Below are positions 33,571 through 64,000 of a stretch of 64,000 nucleotides of DNA, in pieces. The position numbers and the translations under genes were made by a program. Each line of letters starts with the position of its first letter. The stretch's first letter is position 1. The notes beneath the pieces were generated by a model. It saw only the letters and a list, made by a program, of their open reading frames with translations. It did not search any database and had not been told where the DNA came from. The stretch is from a virus: IMG/VR virus record IMGVR_UViG_3300035703_000046, positions 27,315 through 91,314 of that record; one strand, written 5' to 3'.

Positions 33571-35535
33571 TTAACCTTTCTTGAACTTTAATAAATTGTT
33601 ATAAAAATTAATTTGTTTTTCTGTGGGAGATAATTTGCCATCACACTCTTTTCTAGAGCAGACCAAGGTCCAATTTTCTTGAGAGTGATAGGCTCGAAGA
33701 TAACCATTACATTTAGGACAGTTTTGAAAAGCAGTAAATCGATCTTCACTAGCAACTATATCATCATTCTTTTTAGAATAAGTTGATTTATAACTACATT
33801 TTGGAAACGATTTACAATAAACATAATGCGTAGAACCAAAAATATATTCATTGTTTTTGCTATTGCATTTAGGACATGAATTAATCGCATTTTTATTTAC
33901 ATTTTTTTCAACCTTAGATAATTCTTCGGAAAAATCTTTGTAAAAATTACTCAAAAAATCAACATATTCCATGGATCCAGCTTCTATCTTGTCCAAAGAT
34001 TGCTCCATGCTGGCAGTATAATCATAATTCATAAAGCTAAATTTAGAATTTAAATGATTAAAAACTTCTTCGCCAAGAGAGGTTGGTGCCAAGGTTTTAC
34101 CTTTGCTCTCTACGTATTGTCTTTCTTGTATTTTTGAAACTATTGCAGAATAAGTACTAGGTCTTCCAATTCCTCTTCTTTTAAGTTCTTCTAACAAAGT
34201 TTTTTCAGAGAATCTTGAAGGTGGCTTTGTTTGTTTTTCAGAAAGCTTTTCATTATTGATATTGGGAGATTCTCCAACTTCAAGATTAGGCAATATGCTA
34301 TCCGAGGATTTGTCATCGGAATCCTTGAATAAGGATAGCCATCCCTCAAAGTTTAAAATTCTACCGTGAGATTTAAACTCTGATCCGTTTTTTGATTTAA
34401 AAGTGATTGTTGTTGCGTCGTATATTGCTGGTTTTAGCTGAGATGCTAAAAATCTTTTCCAAATTAAATCGTATAATTTCTCTTCATCTTGAGGCAGTCC
34501 TGAACTATCAGGCAAATTATTTATATCAGTGGGTCGAACTGCTTCGTGTGCATCTTGAGCTTCAGCAGAGGCTCCATATAAATTAGGTTTAGATGGAAGA
34601 GCATAATGTTGAGCAGATAAATAATCTCTCGCTTGAGAGATAGCATCATCAGATACCCTAAAAGAATCAGTTCTCATGTAGGTAATTATACCCTTTTCGT
34701 ACAAAGATTGGGCTAATTTCATTGTTTTGGCACTGCCAAATCCCAAAATTGATGAAGAAGATCCCATTAAAGCAGCGGTATCAAATGGAGGAAAGGGATT
34801 TTGCTTTTTTTGAGATTTATCTAAATTAGATACTTTAATTCCTGATTTTAAGGATTCTAATACTTTTTTACCTTTTTCTGCATCAGTAATTTTATCTGAA
34901 TATTTGATTTCAAAATTAATTTTATCTTTTGAGCCATTTGCCGTTACCGTATAATAAGTTTCCGGTTTAAAAGATTCAATTTCTTTCTCTTTTTCTACAA
35001 TCAACTTTAATGCAACAGATTGAGTTCTTCCAGCTGACAAAGAAGTCTTAGACTCTTCTGCCTTTCTTAAATATCCTGAAACTCCAAAACCAACTATACG
35101 GTCAATGATTCTACGAGCTTGTTGGGCATTATAAAGCTGTTCATCAAGTCCTCTAGAAGATTTAATTGATTCAAGAATAGCTTTTTTAGTATATTCTTTA
35201 AATAAGACTCTTTTAATTGGTTTGTTGAATTTTTTTAATTCCTCAGATAAATGCCAAGAAATTGCTTCGCCCTCTCTATCAGGATCGGAAGCGAGCAATA
35301 TTAACTCAGCTTCTTTTGCAGCTTTATTAATATTTTCCATTTGATTTCTTTTATCTTGCAATAAAGAATAATAAGTTTTAAAATTATTTTTAATATCTAC
35401 GCCCCAGGTGGCTTTGGTTGTATCTAAATCAAACATATGACCAAAGCTAGAAAGTATTTTATATTCTTTACCTAAGTATTTTGATAAAGTTTTTGCTTTT
35501 GTTGGAGATTCTACGATAAGTAGTACGCTAGACAT
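33571..35535 (-). CDS. topA: DNA topoisomerase I
   Basis: 654 residues, type IA. The TOPRIM domain starts LLIVESPTKAKTLSKYLGKE and includes LASDPDREGEAISWHL, the DxDxEG metal site. YEKGIITYMRTDSFRVS contains the catalytic Tyr. LLEELKRRGIGRPSTYSAIV is the conserved central motif. Near the C-terminus are two or three zinc-ribbon-like segments (CPKCNSKNNE..., CPKCNGYLRAY...CSRKEC). It relaxes negatively supercoiled DNA, helping replication or transcription of a large phage genome. E. coli TopA is longer (865). It is followed downstream by bS21. Confidence 0.95.
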   Translation of the reverse strand: MSSVLLIVESPTKAKTLSKYLGKEYKILSSFGHMFDLDTTKATWGVDIKNNFKTYYSLLQDKRNQMENINKAAKEAELILLASDPDREGEAISWHLSEELKKFNKPIKRVLFKEYTKKAILESIKSSRGLDEQLYNAQQARRIIDRIVGFGVSGYLRKAEESKTSLSAGRTQSVALKLIVEKEKEIESFKPETYYTVTANGSKDKINFEIKYSDKITDAEKGKKVLESLKSGIKVSNLDKSQKKQNPFPPFDTAALMGSSSSILGFGSAKTMKLAQSLYEKGIITYMRTDSFRVSDDAISQARDYLSAQHYALPSKPNLYGASAEAQDAHEAVRPTDINNLPDSSGLPQDEEKLYDLIWKRFLASQLKPAIYDATTITFKSKNGSEFKSHGRILNFEGWLSLFKDSDDKSSDSILPNLEVGESPNINNEKLSEKQTKPPSRFSEKTLLEELKRRGIGRPSTYSAIVSKIQERQYVESKGKTLAPTSLGEEVFNHLNSKFSFMNYDYTASMEQSLDKIEAGSMEYVDFLSNFYKDFSEELSKVEKNVNKNAINSCPKCNSKNNEYIFGSTHYVYCKSFPKCSYKSTYSKKNDDIVASEDRFTAFQNCPKCNGYLRAYHSQENWTLVCSRKECDGKLSPTEKQINFYNNLLKFKKG

Positions 35536-51311: not shown

Positions 51312-51365
51312 AATGTTAAGTTATATAAGGTTTAATTATATAGCTAATTATTATAGGATTTGACT

Positions 51366-51914
51366 ATGCGCATATATTTTACAGGCTGTCACGCCTCAGG
51401 AAAATCAACCCTTGCTAGATTAGTTTCCAAAGAATATAATCTTCCATTTTTGAGTGAAGTTGCTAGAGCCGTTTTAGCTGAAAAAGAAATTTCTCTAGAA
51501 ACTTTAAGAGTTAACCTGGATGCTATTGACAATTATCAAACCGAAGTTTTTAATCGCCAAATCCAAGAAGAGAAAAAATACGAATCTTTTGTCTCAGATC
51601 GAAGCTTTGATAACTTAGCTTATATGGCTCAGCACGGAACCCAGTTACATAAACTGATTAATGATGACTCTTGTAAGAATTACATAGAATCATTAAGAAA
51701 AAAAGATGTTATCTTTTTCTTGGTCAAGCCTAGCAAAGCCACCATGAAAAATGATGGAATTCGTGAATCAGTTAATTGGGATCAGATGATCGCCATTGAC
51801 GCTAATGTTAAATTCATGTTTGAACTTTTTAACTTGAACTACATTCAAATTAACGCCGAATCAATGCAAGAACGAGTTAAATTGATTAGAAGCGTTTTGG
51901 CTTATGCAAAATAA
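51366..51914 (+). CDS. AAA/P-loop kinase-like protein (NadR/AAA_28 type)
   Basis: 182 residues from the ATG at 51366, with AGGAT upstream; a TTG two codons earlier is less likely. YFTGCHASGKSTLARLVSKE is the Walker A, VSDRSFDNLAYMAQ is a D-R-S segment as in nucleoside and ribosylnicotinamide-kinase-like proteins, and DVIFFLVKP is a hydrophobic strand like Walker B. It may phosphorylate a nucleoside or NAD precursor. It is a single plus-strand gene whose end overlaps the convergent NUDIX gene by 29 bases. Confidence 0.7.
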   Translation: MRIYFTGCHASGKSTLARLVSKEYNLPFLSEVARAVLAEKEISLETLRVNLDAIDNYQTEVFNRQIQEEKKYESFVSDRSFDNLAYMAQHGTQLHKLINDDSCKNYIESLRKKDVIFFLVKPSKATMKNDGIRESVNWDQMIAIDANVKFMFELFNLNYIQINAESMQERVKLIRSVLAYAK

Positions 51915-53946: not shown

Positions 53947-53990
53947 CATAATATCAAGCGTAAGAGTAAGTTGAGGCAACCAAACTCTTA
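53947..53990 (+). promoter_or_regulatory. Extended -10 promoter and leader hairpin before the DUF4388-Roadblock gene
   Basis: TGGCATAAT (extended -10 with the hexamer at 53947-53952) has no strong -35. The leader then contains a hairpin: TAAGAGT (53961-53967) pairs with ACTCTTA (53984-53990), and GTTG (53970-53973) pairs with CAAC (53977-53980) inside. The ribosome site AAGG begins four bases after the hairpin, so the structure can affect translation or protect the 5' end. Confidence 0.45.
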
Positions 53991-54003: not shown

Positions 54004-54750
54004 ATGAAAAAATTTCAAGGCGAAGTTTCTAGCGAATCGCTAGTTGACATACTTCAATTTTATATACTAAATCAATCTTGCGTACATGTTACTATATCTC
54101 ACAAAACATCTTTGGGCGAAATATGGATAAACAACGGCAAGATTGCTCATGCTACTACTGCTAAAAATTTTGGCTTAGATGCTTTCTATGAAATGCTTGG
54201 CTGGCAAGATGGAACATTTAAAATTAATTTAAACGATCTCCCAGATGTAGAATCCATTGATAAATCTTGGACCGAATTAATTCTGGAATATTACGTTCTG
54301 GTAGATGAAAACAAGGCTCCTAAATTTGAAGAGGAGTCTCCTGCAATTCAAGCTCCTCAACCTTTCAAGAGAACTAATTCAGCTTCTTTCAAAAGCATCA
54401 AAGATAAAATCAAAACCATCATGGATTTAGATGGCGTACTTGCGGCTTCCATCGTAGATATTACAACTGGAATGTCAATTGTTCAAGATTCTAAATCAAA
54501 TGTTGACGTAGAATCTTATTGCGCATACATGGTAGAAGTAGTTAAATCACATAAAAAATTCTTAGATAAACTCAATATTCAAGACAAAATTGAAGATATT
54601 GTTATTAATTTAAATAACAATTATCATATTGTTACTTTTGTTCTAAAACAAGATAACTTATTTATCTACGTTGTACTAGACAAAGAAAACAGCAATTTAG
54701 GAATGACTAGAATTGTTCTAGCCAAAATAGAAGAGGAATTAGATCTTTGA
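54004..54750 (+). CDS. DUF4388 (PATAN-like) plus Roadblock/LC7-like two-domain protein
   Basis: 248 residues. Residues 1-95 match DUF4388: FQGEVSSESLVDILQFYIL, GEIWINNGKIAHATTAKNFG, then AFYEMLGWQDGTFKINLNDL. After a Pro/Glu linker, residues about 125-248 have the Roadblock/LC7 (MglB-like) shape, KDKIKTIMDLDGVLAASIVD with TTGMSIVQD and a C-terminal helix. In bacteria these domains regulate small Ras-like GTPases or occur in motility and signalling systems. In a phage it may interfere with host polarity or signalling. It is a plus-strand single gene; its stop touches the tRNA-Thr on the other strand. Confidence 0.7.
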   Translation: MKKFQGEVSSESLVDILQFYILNQSCVHVTISHKTSLGEIWINNGKIAHATTAKNFGLDAFYEMLGWQDGTFKINLNDLPDVESIDKSWTELILEYYVLVDENKAPKFEEESPAIQAPQPFKRTNSASFKSIKDKIKTIMDLDGVLAASIVDITTGMSIVQDSKSNVDVESYCAYMVEVVKSHKKFLDKLNIQDKIEDIVINLNNNYHIVTFVLKQDNLFIYVVLDKENSNLGMTRIVLAKIEEELDL

Positions 54751-54822
54751 GCCGTTTACGGGAGTTGCACCCGTGACCTCCTCATTACCAATGAGGTGCT
54801 CTGCTAACTGAGCTAAAACGAC
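54750..54822 (-). tRNA. tRNA-Thr (anticodon GGT), no encoded CCA
   Basis: A full cloverleaf is readable on the minus strand. Acceptor GTCGTTT pairs with AAACGGC, the D arm is GCTC...GAGC, anticodon stem CCTCA/TGAGG closes the loop TTGGTAA (anticodon GGT), and the T arm is ACGGG-TGCAACT-CCCGT. The T loop has TGC where TTC is usual, a variation known in other bacterial tRNAs. The 3' end after the discriminator T reads CAA, not CCA, so maturation needs the CCA-adding enzyme at 1-439. It abuts the stop of the plus-strand DUF4388 gene. Confidence 0.92.
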
Positions 54823-55348: not shown

Positions 55349-55780
55349 TTACTGCTTAGAACATTTCTCTATGTTATTTGCCCTGTCTCTCATGTATCCG
55401 TAATTTTCTAGATACTGATCTCCCCATCTTAAAAAATGAGATTTAGCAATAGAAATATAACAAGTATTTGCTAATTGCTTAGCTGCCCAACAATCAACTT
55501 TTTTTTCATCAGAACCTTCAACATAATGACCGTATTCATGAACATAGTAAAAAACTGAAATCCCCGGATCATATTCCTCTAACTGTTTAGCAACTTTAGA
55601 GCACCAATAAATACCATTAGGTTTGGCAACTGCCAGATCTCCCTGGGTTTGACGACAATCTTCTTTCACTTTAATTTTGGATAAATTTTTGGGAGGGGTC
55701 CAAGAACCACAAGGAAGATTTGGAGTAAATTCATTTGAAAGCAATATACTAAAAATCAATAACATTGAATTCATTGTCAT
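55349..55780 (-). CDS. Secreted HEYGH-motif protein, second copy
   Basis: 143 residues. It starts with a short hydrophobic segment (MNSMLLIFSILLSNEFTP) that may act as a signal peptide. The mature part is a close relative of the neighbour at 55777: NGIYWCSKVAKQLE, YYVHEYGHYVEGSDEKKVDC, WAAKQLANTCYIS and YGYMRDRANNIEKC. HEYGH fits the HExxH zinc-peptidase motif, and six cysteines are shared by both copies, suggesting disulfides outside the cytoplasm. The start overlaps the stop of the first copy by 4 bases. Confidence 0.75.
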   Translation of the reverse strand: MTMNSMLLIFSILLSNEFTPNLPCGSWTPPKNLSKIKVKEDCRQTQGDLAVAKPNGIYWCSKVAKQLEEYDPGISVFYYVHEYGHYVEGSDEKKVDCWAAKQLANTCYISIAKSHFLRWGDQYLENYGYMRDRANNIEKCSKQ

Positions 55781-56235
55781 TTAATGCTGCAATTATAAAT
55801 AAGTTTTGCCCGGTCTCTCATATAACCATATCCAGGTCTATACTCATCCCCATGCTTCATAAGATGGCTAATTATAATTGGAATATAACATGTATTACTT
55901 AATTCCTTTGCCGCCCAACAATCAGTAGCCATTTCATCTGTCCCATGAATATAATGACCATATTCATGCACATAGGCAAAATGTGTGACCCCAGGCGTTT
56001 CTTTTTCTAGCCTTGCAGCTACTTCGGAGCACCAGTAAATCCCATTGGTCATAGCTACTGCAACATCTCCCTCAGTGACTTTACAATCCTCATAAATAGG
56101 AATATTTTTCAAATTTCCATATGGAACCCACGGGTCACAAGAAAGACCTTCAGCATTAACGCTAGTGGTAAGCGTCAAACTAGAAAATGCAATAAAAGAA
56201 ATTAGAGATAATAGTGTTTTCACAGCTTTGACCAA
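55777..56235 (-). CDS. Secreted HEYGH-motif putative metallopeptidase
   Basis: 152 residues with an N-terminal signal peptide (KTLLSLISFIAFSSLTLTTS then VNAEG). The start may be the TTG at 56235 or the GTG four codons later. The mature domain has CDPWVPYGNLKN, GIYWCSEVAARLE, FAYVHEYGHYIHGTDEMATD and CWAAKELSNTCYI. HEYGHYIHGTD resembles the HExxHxxGxxD style of metzincin zinc sites but with the Gly one place later. Six Cys are spaced as in the second copy. It is preceded by a promoter (56255-56283) and may act in the host envelope. No known family is recognised. Confidence 0.75.
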   Translation of the reverse strand: MVKAVKTLLSLISFIAFSSLTLTTSVNAEGLSCDPWVPYGNLKNIPIYEDCKVTEGDVAVAMTNGIYWCSEVAARLEKETPGVTHFAYVHEYGHYIHGTDEMATDCWAAKELSNTCYIPIIISHLMKHGDEYRPGYGYMRDRAKLIYNCSIK

Positions 56236-60830: not shown

Positions 60831-60859
60831 ATTATAATGCTAGAAAATTAACCCGTCAA
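60831..60859 (-). promoter_or_regulatory. Consensus sigma70 promoter for rIIB
   Basis: Minus strand: TTGACG (60859-60854), 17-base spacer, TATAAT (60836-60831). This is one base from the consensus. The -35 overlaps the rIIA stop codon. The leader of about 30 bases contains AAGGAG before the rIIB ATG. Confidence 0.85.
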
Positions 60860-63036
60860 GCGCACATACTTACACCCACGCATGAGTGCGAGGAATTGTT
60901 AAACTTGTCCATCATTTCTACATAAGAATTTACTTTTTCAAAGTCAGAAGAATCAGTATTATAATAAGAAATTGGGAAAAACTTAATCATAGGATACTGG
61001 CGAATAAGGTTTTCAAAAAACTTATCGTAATCATATTCAAATGATTTAATCAAAGATGTAGAATCATAATATGAATAGTCATTCAGATGCTTTGCCAAGA
61101 TTGACATTGAAGAATGATTCCAAACAGCAGAGTATTTGCTTTGTGCGGCTTTACACTTCCTTAGATAAGTTCCAATAAGATTATCGCTAGCTAGATGCTT
61201 TGAGAAAATTTCCAATAGACGAGAGAACTTACTGTTAGAAATTTTTTCATAAACAGCCATGGACTCCAAATAATCTTGCAGAGAATTTAGACCGAAATGA
61301 GCTTTATACTCATCAAACTTTTGATTAACTGCAACATTGAGATGAGTCCAATTACTTGGAACCTTGTCCGTTTTTGATGAGGCAACTCCATAAATCTTTA
61401 CGCCGAGAGCGTTTTGAAGATCTCGAAGATAAGACATGGTTTGAGAACTTACATTGATCGGCTTGTTAGCTTTTAGATCGTAGAAGAAATATACAATATC
61501 TTCAGAAGGAGATACTTCTACCAATGAACGACCATGATCTGCCCGTGATGAAGAATGATCAAATTTATAAACAAAAAGATTCTTCTTATCAGAAAGAGAC
61601 TTACGATTCGTGTAACGGATTGCTTTGTCCGGTGTGATTTCTGAAACTTTTGCATAGCAGATCTCCTGTGCAAACCAAAGATATTTATGCTCTGCAATTG
61701 ATTCCTTGCTATCTCCGATAGTCATAATAACTACATGATTAAGACCACTGGAATCAGAAAGCAATTTGATTGCGTATTTTTTAAGATCAGAAGAAGCTAA
61801 ATCGTTAAACACAATAGTAGCATCTCCACGGCTTAGAATATTTGCAAAGTCTGCGTCAGCGCTTGGATTCTTATAATTTACTGTCTTGGTCTTAATATCT
61901 TTAAATCCATTTGCCAGCGTAACCTTAGAATACCAAGTTAGCCTTGCCTCAGACCCAAACATCGAAATCTTTGGATTGCGATAAACGGGATTTGAATCAT
62001 AATTTACTGCATCAATAATTTTGGATAGCTCAGGAACAGCATCCAAAGCAGTATTGTACTTGATAAAAGCATCTCGATAAGTTAGCTCATTTGCAATCTG
62101 CTCAGAAATTCTAGAATTGATCTCGTCAATGATCGAATCAAGCTTGTCTCGAATTGCCTTGATAGTCCGGGCGTCATAATGCAAAGAATCACGAGAAGCT
62201 GCCAGGCTAAGATCGGAATTATTGAAATGAATTCGAACACACGAATAGCTAAAGAAATTCCTAGCAGGGTGGGAATCAAAATGATTATGAATGTCAATGG
62301 CATAAGGAATACCGCCCATAATAGCATGGGTGCCACGGAAATCATAATCTGTATTACGAGCCAGGTGCCAATCATTACCAGAAAAGACAGTCTTTTCATT
62401 GGAGTACGTGATACTGCACTCTTCTCCGCCCTTAAAGACAGTGGGTCGAACCTTCCAAAACTCCGTCACAAAACGAAGCTTCTCAAGAAAACGCTCTGGA
62501 TCATACTTCTTTACAGGAATAATAATAGTTGTTCCATTAGGCTGATCGGTATCTGCTTCATAAAGGCAGGAAATCTTGCCTCGGCGAGACTCATCAATGT
62601 AAGAAGTATAGGTACGAATTTTACCATCAACAACCGAAGTGATAGTAAAAGAATCGGAATAGGCAAATGCGCTCTTGCTTCCGATACCAAAATAACCTAC
62701 CTGGTCATCAGAATCTCGCTTAGTAGAAGAGGCGTAATTGCAAAAAATCTTTTCAATACGCTCAGGGGAAAGACCGGGACCAAAATCCTGAACCTTAAAG
62801 TACATATCATCATAGGACGGAAGATGTACAATAACCGGAATATCAGACTTTCCAACTTCAACATGGGCATCCCGAGCATTGGTAACATACTCACGAACCA
62901 CGGCAAGAATAGGATCCTTGTAGAGCTTGTTCCGGAGAATCTCCAAAACAAGACCCACGTCACCAATGCCATACTGATGATCCTTAAGAGAACCATCAGT
63001 ATGCGTCTGAACCTTCTGAACAATCAACTTCGACAT
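60856..63036 (-). CDS. rIIA: rIIA-like GHKL ATPase protein
   Basis: 726 residues, like T4 rIIA (725). The N-terminal GHKL domain has VVREYVTNARDAHVEV (N-box, Asn53), VQDFGPGLSPERI (G1) and GYFGIGSKSAFAYSDSF (G2). The middle and C-terminal parts (for example NDLASSDLKKYAIKLLSDSS) are less conserved. The protein pairs with rIIB; in T4 they help exclude superinfecting phages and prevent abortive systems. Expression is likely strong: less AT-biased codons, a promoter at 63087-63114 and a 5' hairpin (63058-63080) before the SD-like AGAGAG. The stop overlaps the rIIB promoter. Confidence 0.9.
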   Translation of the reverse strand: MSKLIVQKVQTHTDGSLKDHQYGIGDVGLVLEILRNKLYKDPILAVVREYVTNARDAHVEVGKSDIPVIVHLPSYDDMYFKVQDFGPGLSPERIEKIFCNYASSTKRDSDDQVGYFGIGSKSAFAYSDSFTITSVVDGKIRTYTSYIDESRRGKISCLYEADTDQPNGTTIIIPVKKYDPERFLEKLRFVTEFWKVRPTVFKGGEECSITYSNEKTVFSGNDWHLARNTDYDFRGTHAIMGGIPYAIDIHNHFDSHPARNFFSYSCVRIHFNNSDLSLAASRDSLHYDARTIKAIRDKLDSIIDEINSRISEQIANELTYRDAFIKYNTALDAVPELSKIIDAVNYDSNPVYRNPKISMFGSEARLTWYSKVTLANGFKDIKTKTVNYKNPSADADFANILSRGDATIVFNDLASSDLKKYAIKLLSDSSGLNHVVIMTIGDSKESIAEHKYLWFAQEICYAKVSEITPDKAIRYTNRKSLSDKKNLFVYKFDHSSSRADHGRSLVEVSPSEDIVYFFYDLKANKPINVSSQTMSYLRDLQNALGVKIYGVASSKTDKVPSNWTHLNVAVNQKFDEYKAHFGLNSLQDYLESMAVYEKISNSKFSRLLEIFSKHLASDNLIGTYLRKCKAAQSKYSAVWNHSSMSILAKHLNDYSYYDSTSLIKSFEYDYDKFFENLIRQYPMIKFFPISYYNTDSSDFEKVNSYVEMMDKFNNSSHSCVGVSMCA

Positions 63037-63145: not shown

Positions 63146-64000
63146 TCAAATTTCGTATGGAGATTCGGAGAAGATAATATTTTTAATAGAATTACACCCA
63201 GCGGATTTTAAATCATGAACAATAAATTCTTTTAAAGAATTTTCATTTTTAAATTCAAAAACTTCTCCATCTTTAATTAGTGAAAAAATATTTAATTTTC
63301 TAAATATATCTATTTTAGAAATAATTAAATCAGTAACATCATTAATTTTTAATGAATAAATTAATTTATCCATATCAAGCCAATTTACTTGGCGCTTTCT
63401 TCCCGTAGTAGACCCATATTCGGAACCAGCTTCTGCAATTAAATCAAATCTAGGATCTTTGCCTTGAAATTCTTTTTTTCCTACATAAGTAGAATAAATT
63501 TTAATTGCACCGTAAATTCTACTTATAGAACTAATAGGAACTCCATTCAAAGGAACCGCTGCCAAAGAACAGTGAGTACTAGTTACATAAGGATACTCGC
63601 CAAAGTTAACATCTAAATAAAATCCCTGAGCACCTTCGCCTAAAATAGATACTTCTTTTTTATTTTGAATAATTTGAGGAAAATCTACAACAAAAGGCTT
63701 TAACTCGCTAACATTTTGTACCTGAACGCTAGTTCGAGCGTATTTATCACGAGAGGCTGGTCCAACGCCTCTTTTAGTAGATCCAATTGTTGTATCTTTA
63801 GAATCTTCGGCAATGTGATTATCAGTAATGATACAAGTGTTTACATCAATTTTAACTAAAGACTTAATATCAATCTTTTTAAGATCGTCATGCTTATTGA
63901 ACTGAGATTGAAGAACTTCAATTTCATTAAAAAACGTTTCGGGATGAATCAAACAGTTCCTACCAATAACAGAAGGGACATTAAAAAATATTCCAGCCGG
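63146..64000 (-). CDS. Adenylosuccinate synthetase family protein (PurA/PurZ), N-terminus beyond window
   Basis: About 285 residues are visible. Translation continues in frame through base 64000 with PAGIFFNVPSVIGRNCLIHP, so the gene is cut by the edge and a TTG at 63952 is not the start. TIGSTKRGVGPASRDKYAR (usual GTTGRGIGPAYEDK), LGEGAQGFYLDVNFGEYPYV, STYVGKKEF, YGSTTGRKRQVNWLDMDKL and SKIDIFRKLNIF match the family. From the visible part a total near 345 residues is inferred, shorter than E. coli PurA (432) and close to phage PurZ. The GST in place of GTT and the shortened C-terminus suggest PurZ, which makes the precursor of 2-aminoadenine, but the diagnostic N-terminal loop is not in the window. 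Confidence 0.82.
   Translation of the reverse strand, partial: PAGIFFNVPSVIGRNCLIHPETFFNEIEVLQSQFNKHDDLKKIDIKSLVKIDVNTCIITDNHIAEDSKDTTIGSTKRGVGPASRDKYARTSVQVQNVSELKPFVVDFPQIIQNKKEVSILGEGAQGFYLDVNFGEYPYVTSTHCSLAAVPLNGVPISSISRIYGAIKIYSTYVGKKEFQGKDPRFDLIAEAGSEYGSTTGRKRQVNWLDMDKLIYSLKINDVTDLIISKIDIFRKLNIFSLIKDGEVFEFKNENSLKEFIVHDLKSAGCNSIKNIIFSESPYEI

Follow-up and report, generated by a model that had tools for sequence, protein, structure and literature searches.

A large-phage PATAN (DUF4388) protein with a predicted Roadblock-fold C-terminal domain and its bacterial relatives

The gene and its surroundings

The window, a 64,000-nucleotide stretch of the IMG/VR contig IMGVR_UViG_3300035703_000046, comes from a large uncultured bacterial virus. 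It contains a plus-strand open reading frame that begins four residues before a PATAN domain and whose upstream neighbor lies on the opposite strand. An earlier note on this DNA had placed the gene at exactly the coordinates that we recovered; the product has 248 residues. We annotated the locus as follows:

53961..53990, plus strand: perfect 7-bp inverted repeat TAAGAGT...ACTCTTA, candidate operator or leader hairpin, conserved in three related contigs
54004..54750, plus strand: PATAN (DUF4388)-Roadblock coding sequence, 248 aa, ATG to TGA, with orthologues in contigs L002 and L003 and under purifying selection
54016..54315, plus strand: DUF4388/PATAN domain, residues 5-104 (Pfam PF14332)
54316..54393, plus strand: variable linker, residues ~105-130, 20% identical to the orthologue, with pLDDT below 50 at residues 114-128
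54394..54747, plus strand: predicted Roadblock/LC7-fold domain, residues ~131-248, of the 'IEDILITL..YHIIRP' subfamily (tblastn, AlphaFold2, Foldseek)
54749..54822, minus strand: tRNA-Thr (GGT), found with ARAGORN, convergent with the coding sequence and overlapping the last two bases of its stop codon

The gene is a lone plus-strand gene within a minus-strand region, with both neighbors on the minus strand and the tRNA gene adjoining. Two related IMG/VR contigs of 301 and 121 kb carry an orthologue of the fusion (69% identity) in the same gene order, and in both of them the tRNA-Thr gene again overlaps the stop codon. In L002 the gene order matches that of the window, with HEAT-repeat-like, NUDIX, and AAA_28 genes and the stop-overlapping tRNA. 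Because the orthologue in the 301-kb relative has diverged to this extent (dN 0.21, dS 1.53) and yet keeps the same neighbors, we regard the gene as real. Conservation differed between the parts of the protein, with orthologue identities of 81% for the Roadblock domain, 66% for PATAN, and 20% for the linker. The dN/dS ratio between the window and the 301-kb phage was approximately 0.14 overall, 0.13 for PATAN, and 0.10 for the Roadblock domain, values that are rough since dS exceeds 1.

The inverted repeat ends 13 bp ahead of the start codon. In the three related contigs it occurs as a single site per contig, always 5′ of the PATAN-Roadblock gene, and its arms are identical across contigs while the loop differs. 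The conserved repeat could act as an operator or form a small hairpin. An unusually stable RNA hairpin was considered for the leader and rejected, as its folding energy was no better than that of shuffled sequences (z −0.56 to −0.77). Thus, the structured leader proposed earlier holds in the form of a gene-specific conserved repeat but not as exceptional folding. A separate plus-strand promoter follows from the minus orientation of the neighbors; when the 80-bp gap upstream was scanned, no promoter of the sigma-70 type was found.

An isolated plus-strand gene in a minus-strand region beside a tRNA gene sits in a common place for cargo, and the domain appears to have been captured by phages several times independently (see below). 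Both observations would fit a captured bacterial signalling fragment that has little effect during infection. We consider such a passenger improbable, given that purifying selection has acted on the gene between diverged phages, most strongly on the Roadblock part, and that its position and the upstream repeat are conserved.

Several other genes in the window merit mention. The adjacent genes at 55349-55780 and 55777-56235 (minus strand) encode two small paralogues that begin like a signal peptide and carry an HEYGH motif resembling the HExxH motif of zinc proteases; neither belongs to a Pfam or PHROGs family, and a homologue occurs at the same place in L002 (6356-6802). The minus-strand ORF at 63146-63952, near the record end, is adenylosuccinate-synthetase-like (Pfam E value of 1.5e-44; PHROG '2-aminooxy adenylosuccinate synthetase'); from its sequence it is a possible PurZ, which would hint at diaminopurine DNA. 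A rIIA-like protein (60856-63036, minus strand; PHROG 612, E value of 5e-98) is also found in L002 near the PATAN-Roadblock gene. The large protein at 33571-35535 (minus strand) falls in PHROG 13226, 'unknown function', and its phage relatives are annotated as DNA topoisomerase I. Another lone plus-strand gene (51360-51914) encodes a P-loop protein of the AAA_28 type, for which PADLOC gave a weak match to VakA (E value of 4e-08).

Domain architecture and predicted fold

The N-terminal domain matched Pfam DUF4388, which we take to be the PATAN domain. The PF14332 match covered profile positions 1 to 122 of 122 (E value of 1.2e-13) and scored 51.7 bits against a curated cutoff of 25, and a six-frame search of the contig recovered it again (E value of 1.4e-15). 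The earlier assignment of DUF4388 is therefore borne out across the whole domain.

The C-terminal part matched no family in Pfam, NCBIfam, PHROGs, or PADLOC scans. Residues 105 to 248 had no Pfam match, the Robl_LC7 model (PF03259) did not match the protein, and searching all six frames of the contig and both relatives with this model gave no match. Its assignment draws on predicted structure and intermediate sequences. A first structure model built from two sequences was poor (pLDDT 44), and only its secondary structure was used. With an alignment of 22 viral and bacterial sequences, AlphaFold2 gave a model with a pLDDT of 88, in which the C-terminal half has the predicted order alpha-beta-beta-alpha-beta-beta-beta-alpha. 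When this model was compared with the PDB using Foldseek, the best 50 matches listed were all Roadblock/LC7-superfamily chains or complexes, with a best E value of 9.5e-06 and TM scores, normalized to the target, of up to 0.83. The matches listed include a Streptomyces Roadblock protein, p14/MP1, Ragulator, an Asgard Roadblock protein, and dynein LC7, as well as Myxococcus xanthus MglB and MglC and Thermus thermophilus MglB.

The alignment includes homologous REC-DUF4388-Roadblock proteins, and 8 of its 22 members matched Robl_LC7 at an E value of ≤1. Profile searches also matched MglB and MglC, which is supportive rather than independent evidence, since the alignment already holds recognized Roadblock domains. 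The C-terminal profile alone gave weak matches against the PDB, the best two of which were Roadblock proteins (E values of 0.08 and 0.16). Together, these results identify the C-terminal domain as Roadblock at the level of the predicted fold: the claim that the protein ends in a Roadblock domain was upheld by structure prediction, with MglB and MglC among the Foldseek matches, but not by the Pfam model.

We found no support for a virion structural or morphogenesis protein, a role that we judge extremely improbable. The match to the Pfam coat-protein model P2_N was weak and below its cutoff (E value of 0.097). Against such a role, no PHROG family matched below an E value of 0.05, the BFVD viral fold library gave no match at an E value of ≤0.001, and the PDB matches listed were Roadblock signalling proteins. 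The earlier note would have been contradicted had the nearest relatives all been phage structural proteins; they are instead signalling-type proteins of bacteria and other phage genes with no known structural role. Known anti-phage defense did not account for the protein either, as no PADLOC family matched it at an E value of ≤0.01.

Relatives in viruses and bacteria

The same PATAN-Roadblock fusion was present in L017, an unrelated viral contig of 83 kb and 59% GC that carries 18 tRNA genes in 10 kb. A receiver domain is absent from both the window and the L017 ORFs. Four other viral contigs (L018, L019, L020, and L068) encode the Roadblock part alone, within about 3 kb of terminase genes in L018 to L020; L068 was the sole addition when viral sequences were scanned twice more, using the PATAN part and, separately, a broader Roadblock alignment. 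The viral status of L017 to L020 and L068 is based on IMG/VR classification and neighboring genes. No relative was found among the 50,697 phage records of INPHARED. As pattern-based collection scans overlook diverged relatives, these counts are lower bounds. In L019 (4935-6118), the next gene after the free-standing Roadblock gene has the same orientation and is a candidate defense gene according to PADLOC (PDC-S52, E value of 7e-48).

Beyond viruses, a tblastn search of plasmids with residues 125 to 248 matched 26 records; the matches listed had E values down to 5e-16 and about 32 to 38% identity and were annotated as 'hypothetical protein' or unannotated. The C-terminal domain falls in a bacterial subfamily of about 120-residue 'hypothetical proteins' with an invariant or near-invariant core, D-G...V-D..SGM...E...A...EV...IED-I-I-L...YH...F-Y...NL...R. 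It thus represents a widespread Roadblock subfamily that is missed by Pfam's Roadblock model.

In a tree of 24 Roadblock domains, the window pair lies on a long branch next to UBP7 with 90/94 support, a placement that is not firm. The tree forces at least three changes between phage and bacterium, and therefore phages have probably captured the domain repeatedly.

Bacterial fusions came from a scan of 84,980 species genomes. A Myxococcales metagenome-assembled genome (L021) encodes a REC-PATAN-Roadblock protein that aligns to the phage protein over residues 4 to 248 with 27% identity, and more distant fusions occur in Calditrichota (L026, L030, and L032), WOR-3 (L025), and Ardenticatenales. 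Minicystis rosea (L038) encodes another REC-PATAN-Roadblock protein. In a draw of 141 Myxococcota genomes, 12 had a match at an E value of ≤1e-15, and 5 of these 12 included the Roadblock part. The Myxococcota, Calditrichota, and WOR-3 fusions have the same order as the phage protein, PATAN then Roadblock, and L021 and L038 share its Roadblock subfamily ('IED.LI.LG.QYH.IRP'). All three groups of fusions differ in carrying an extra N-terminal receiver, which the phage protein lacks.

Members of the subfamily also lie beside small-GTPase genes, in four examples that do not amount to a statistic. In Agarilytica (L007), a Ras-like GTPase and a conventional Roadblock gene share a gene run with the subfamily gene; Comamonas (L012) has the order GTPase, Roadblock, subfamily gene; UBP7 (L022) has a Ras-like GTPase 145 bp downstream; and Minicystis has an Arf-profile match about 300 bp downstream of the L062 gene. 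In Agarilytica, Comamonas, Acinetobacter, and Streptomyces, the subfamily gene has conventional Roadblock genes in its vicinity. Of the eight plasmid loci examined, four had neighbors of neither kind, GTPase or Roadblock. In UBP7, the gene for a TPR-type protein (L022, 2096-4432) immediately precedes the free-standing Roadblock and Ras-like GTPase genes, and this protein has a second, degenerate Roadblock-like domain at its C terminus.

The phage contigs, which are possibly incomplete, contained no MglA-like or Arf-family GTPase, whereas Arf was matched in bacterial genomes searched alongside. Any GTPase target would thus be the host's. As a hint to the host group, which the earlier note had seen in this architecture, the domain is of little help: it is found in Myxococcota, Pseudomonadota, Actinomycetota, Deinococcota, and Bacteroidota, while the phage sequences form a long branch whose placement lacks firm support. 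Host assignment through the DNA polymerase and the topoisomerase-like protein failed, as the best phage matches were below 60% identity and had many hosts.

We also weighed a role in a phage process without any host GTPase, in which the protein would be a dimeric adaptor for a phage NTPase or for positioning the phage within the cell. The locus is conserved among related large phages, P-loop NTPases such as the AAA_28 protein and a UvrD-type helicase are encoded nearby, and a role in regulating diverse NTPases is attributed to Roadblock domains (PMC4316618). This role nevertheless seems unlikely to us: the sporadic distribution is unlike that of a core phage function, with no relative in the phage records searched, and no small GTPase was detected in the contigs.

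Comparison with known regulators and proposed role

In many bacteria, polarity and pili are under the control of small Ras-like GTPases and their Roadblock regulators. By model comparison, the phage protein shares the Roadblock fold with MglB of Myxococcus and Thermus, a GAP/GEF of MglA, and with MglC, at 11 to 18% identity, and only the phage protein is fused to PATAN. In MglB, the C-terminal helix beyond the Roadblock core is the GEF region, and Asn37 and Arg98 are needed for GAP activity (PMC11016934). The GEF helix is absent from the phage protein, which in the model ends three residues past the third Roadblock helix, and for the two GAP residues the profile alignment, whose loops carry insertions, shows no clear counterparts. 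Because of these two features, MglB-like GAP or GEF activity would not be expected by default. A binding, scaffold, or decoy role without catalysis, for which MglC offers a scaffold-type comparison (PMC7949163), would be as likely as GAP activity.

The phage proteins consist of the two output domains of the Myxococcota relatives without the receiver, which suggests a signal-independent module. Tentatively, we favor the reading that the protein is a phage-captured, receiver-less output half of a REC-PATAN-Roadblock regulator of polarity or surface motility that engages a host MglA-type GTPase module. The reading builds on the gene and its domains, the predicted fold, the conserved locus, the missing receiver, and the GTPase genes next to bacterial relatives. 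The connection with small-GTPase signalling proposed earlier gains from these genes, from the MglB and MglC fold matches, and from the occurrence of PATAN genes near mglA and mglB (PMC4316618). Lacking a phospho-receiver, the module would act without host signals. Its Roadblock domain would dimerize and engage a host MglA-type Ras-like GTPase or its Roadblock partners, and PATAN would anchor the complex at the protein that this domain normally binds. The infected cell would likely show disturbed polarity, pili, or surface signalling, so that host motility or polarity may suffer interference. One possible benefit to the phage would be the exclusion of pilus-dependent competing phages, and superinfection exclusion is a plausible purpose.

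An alternative places the emphasis on type IV pili. Here PATAN would bind the pilus motor or proteins that regulate it, bringing about superinfection exclusion or surface remodelling, and the Roadblock domain would serve as a dimerization platform only. The cyanobacterial type IV pili regulators PixE, PixG, and LsiR have PATAN in common with the phage protein; they differ in their CheY-like receiver, and the available text of PMC7690835 mentions no Roadblock domain for them. PixE reportedly binds PilB1, the motor for pilus extension (PMC7690835). Phages also encode pilus-motor inhibitors that lead to superinfection exclusion: Tip, Aqs1, and Zip act on pilus motors or on regulators (PMC11656802). 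These are small Pseudomonas phage proteins with no known relation to the PATAN-Roadblock protein, and the possible likeness is one of purpose, a host surface altered against other phages. Free-standing Roadblock relatives, moreover, are cargo in predicted temperate-phage contigs, in L019 with PDC-S52 next to the gene. On the other hand, stronger conservation of the Roadblock domain than of PATAN would be odd for a mere dimerization platform, and a large phage that is probably lytic would benefit less obviously from exclusion. Overall, we rate this pilus-specific role as rather unlikely.

Our search of the open-licence literature returned no report of phage Roadblock or PATAN proteins or of phages attacking the small-GTPase polarity switch. 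More doubtful than the host-GTPase reading is the general proposition that large phages and some predicted temperate phages use Roadblock regulators, some of them receiver-less PATAN-Roadblock fusions, to take over or jam the Ras-like GTPase polarity switch of their hosts. Were it true, such manipulation of small-GTPase signalling in bacteria by viruses would form a type of phage-host interaction that we have not found described. Should host GTPases be bound, the protein would provide a natural probe of the GTPase system and a testable route to superinfection control. Laboratory tests are made feasible by the free-standing relatives, which lie in prophages predicted for Acinetobacter-like and Comamonadaceae-like hosts, host groups that were assigned from nearest relatives. 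The Roadblock gene of the IMG/VR contig L019 groups with an Acinetobacter plasmid gene.
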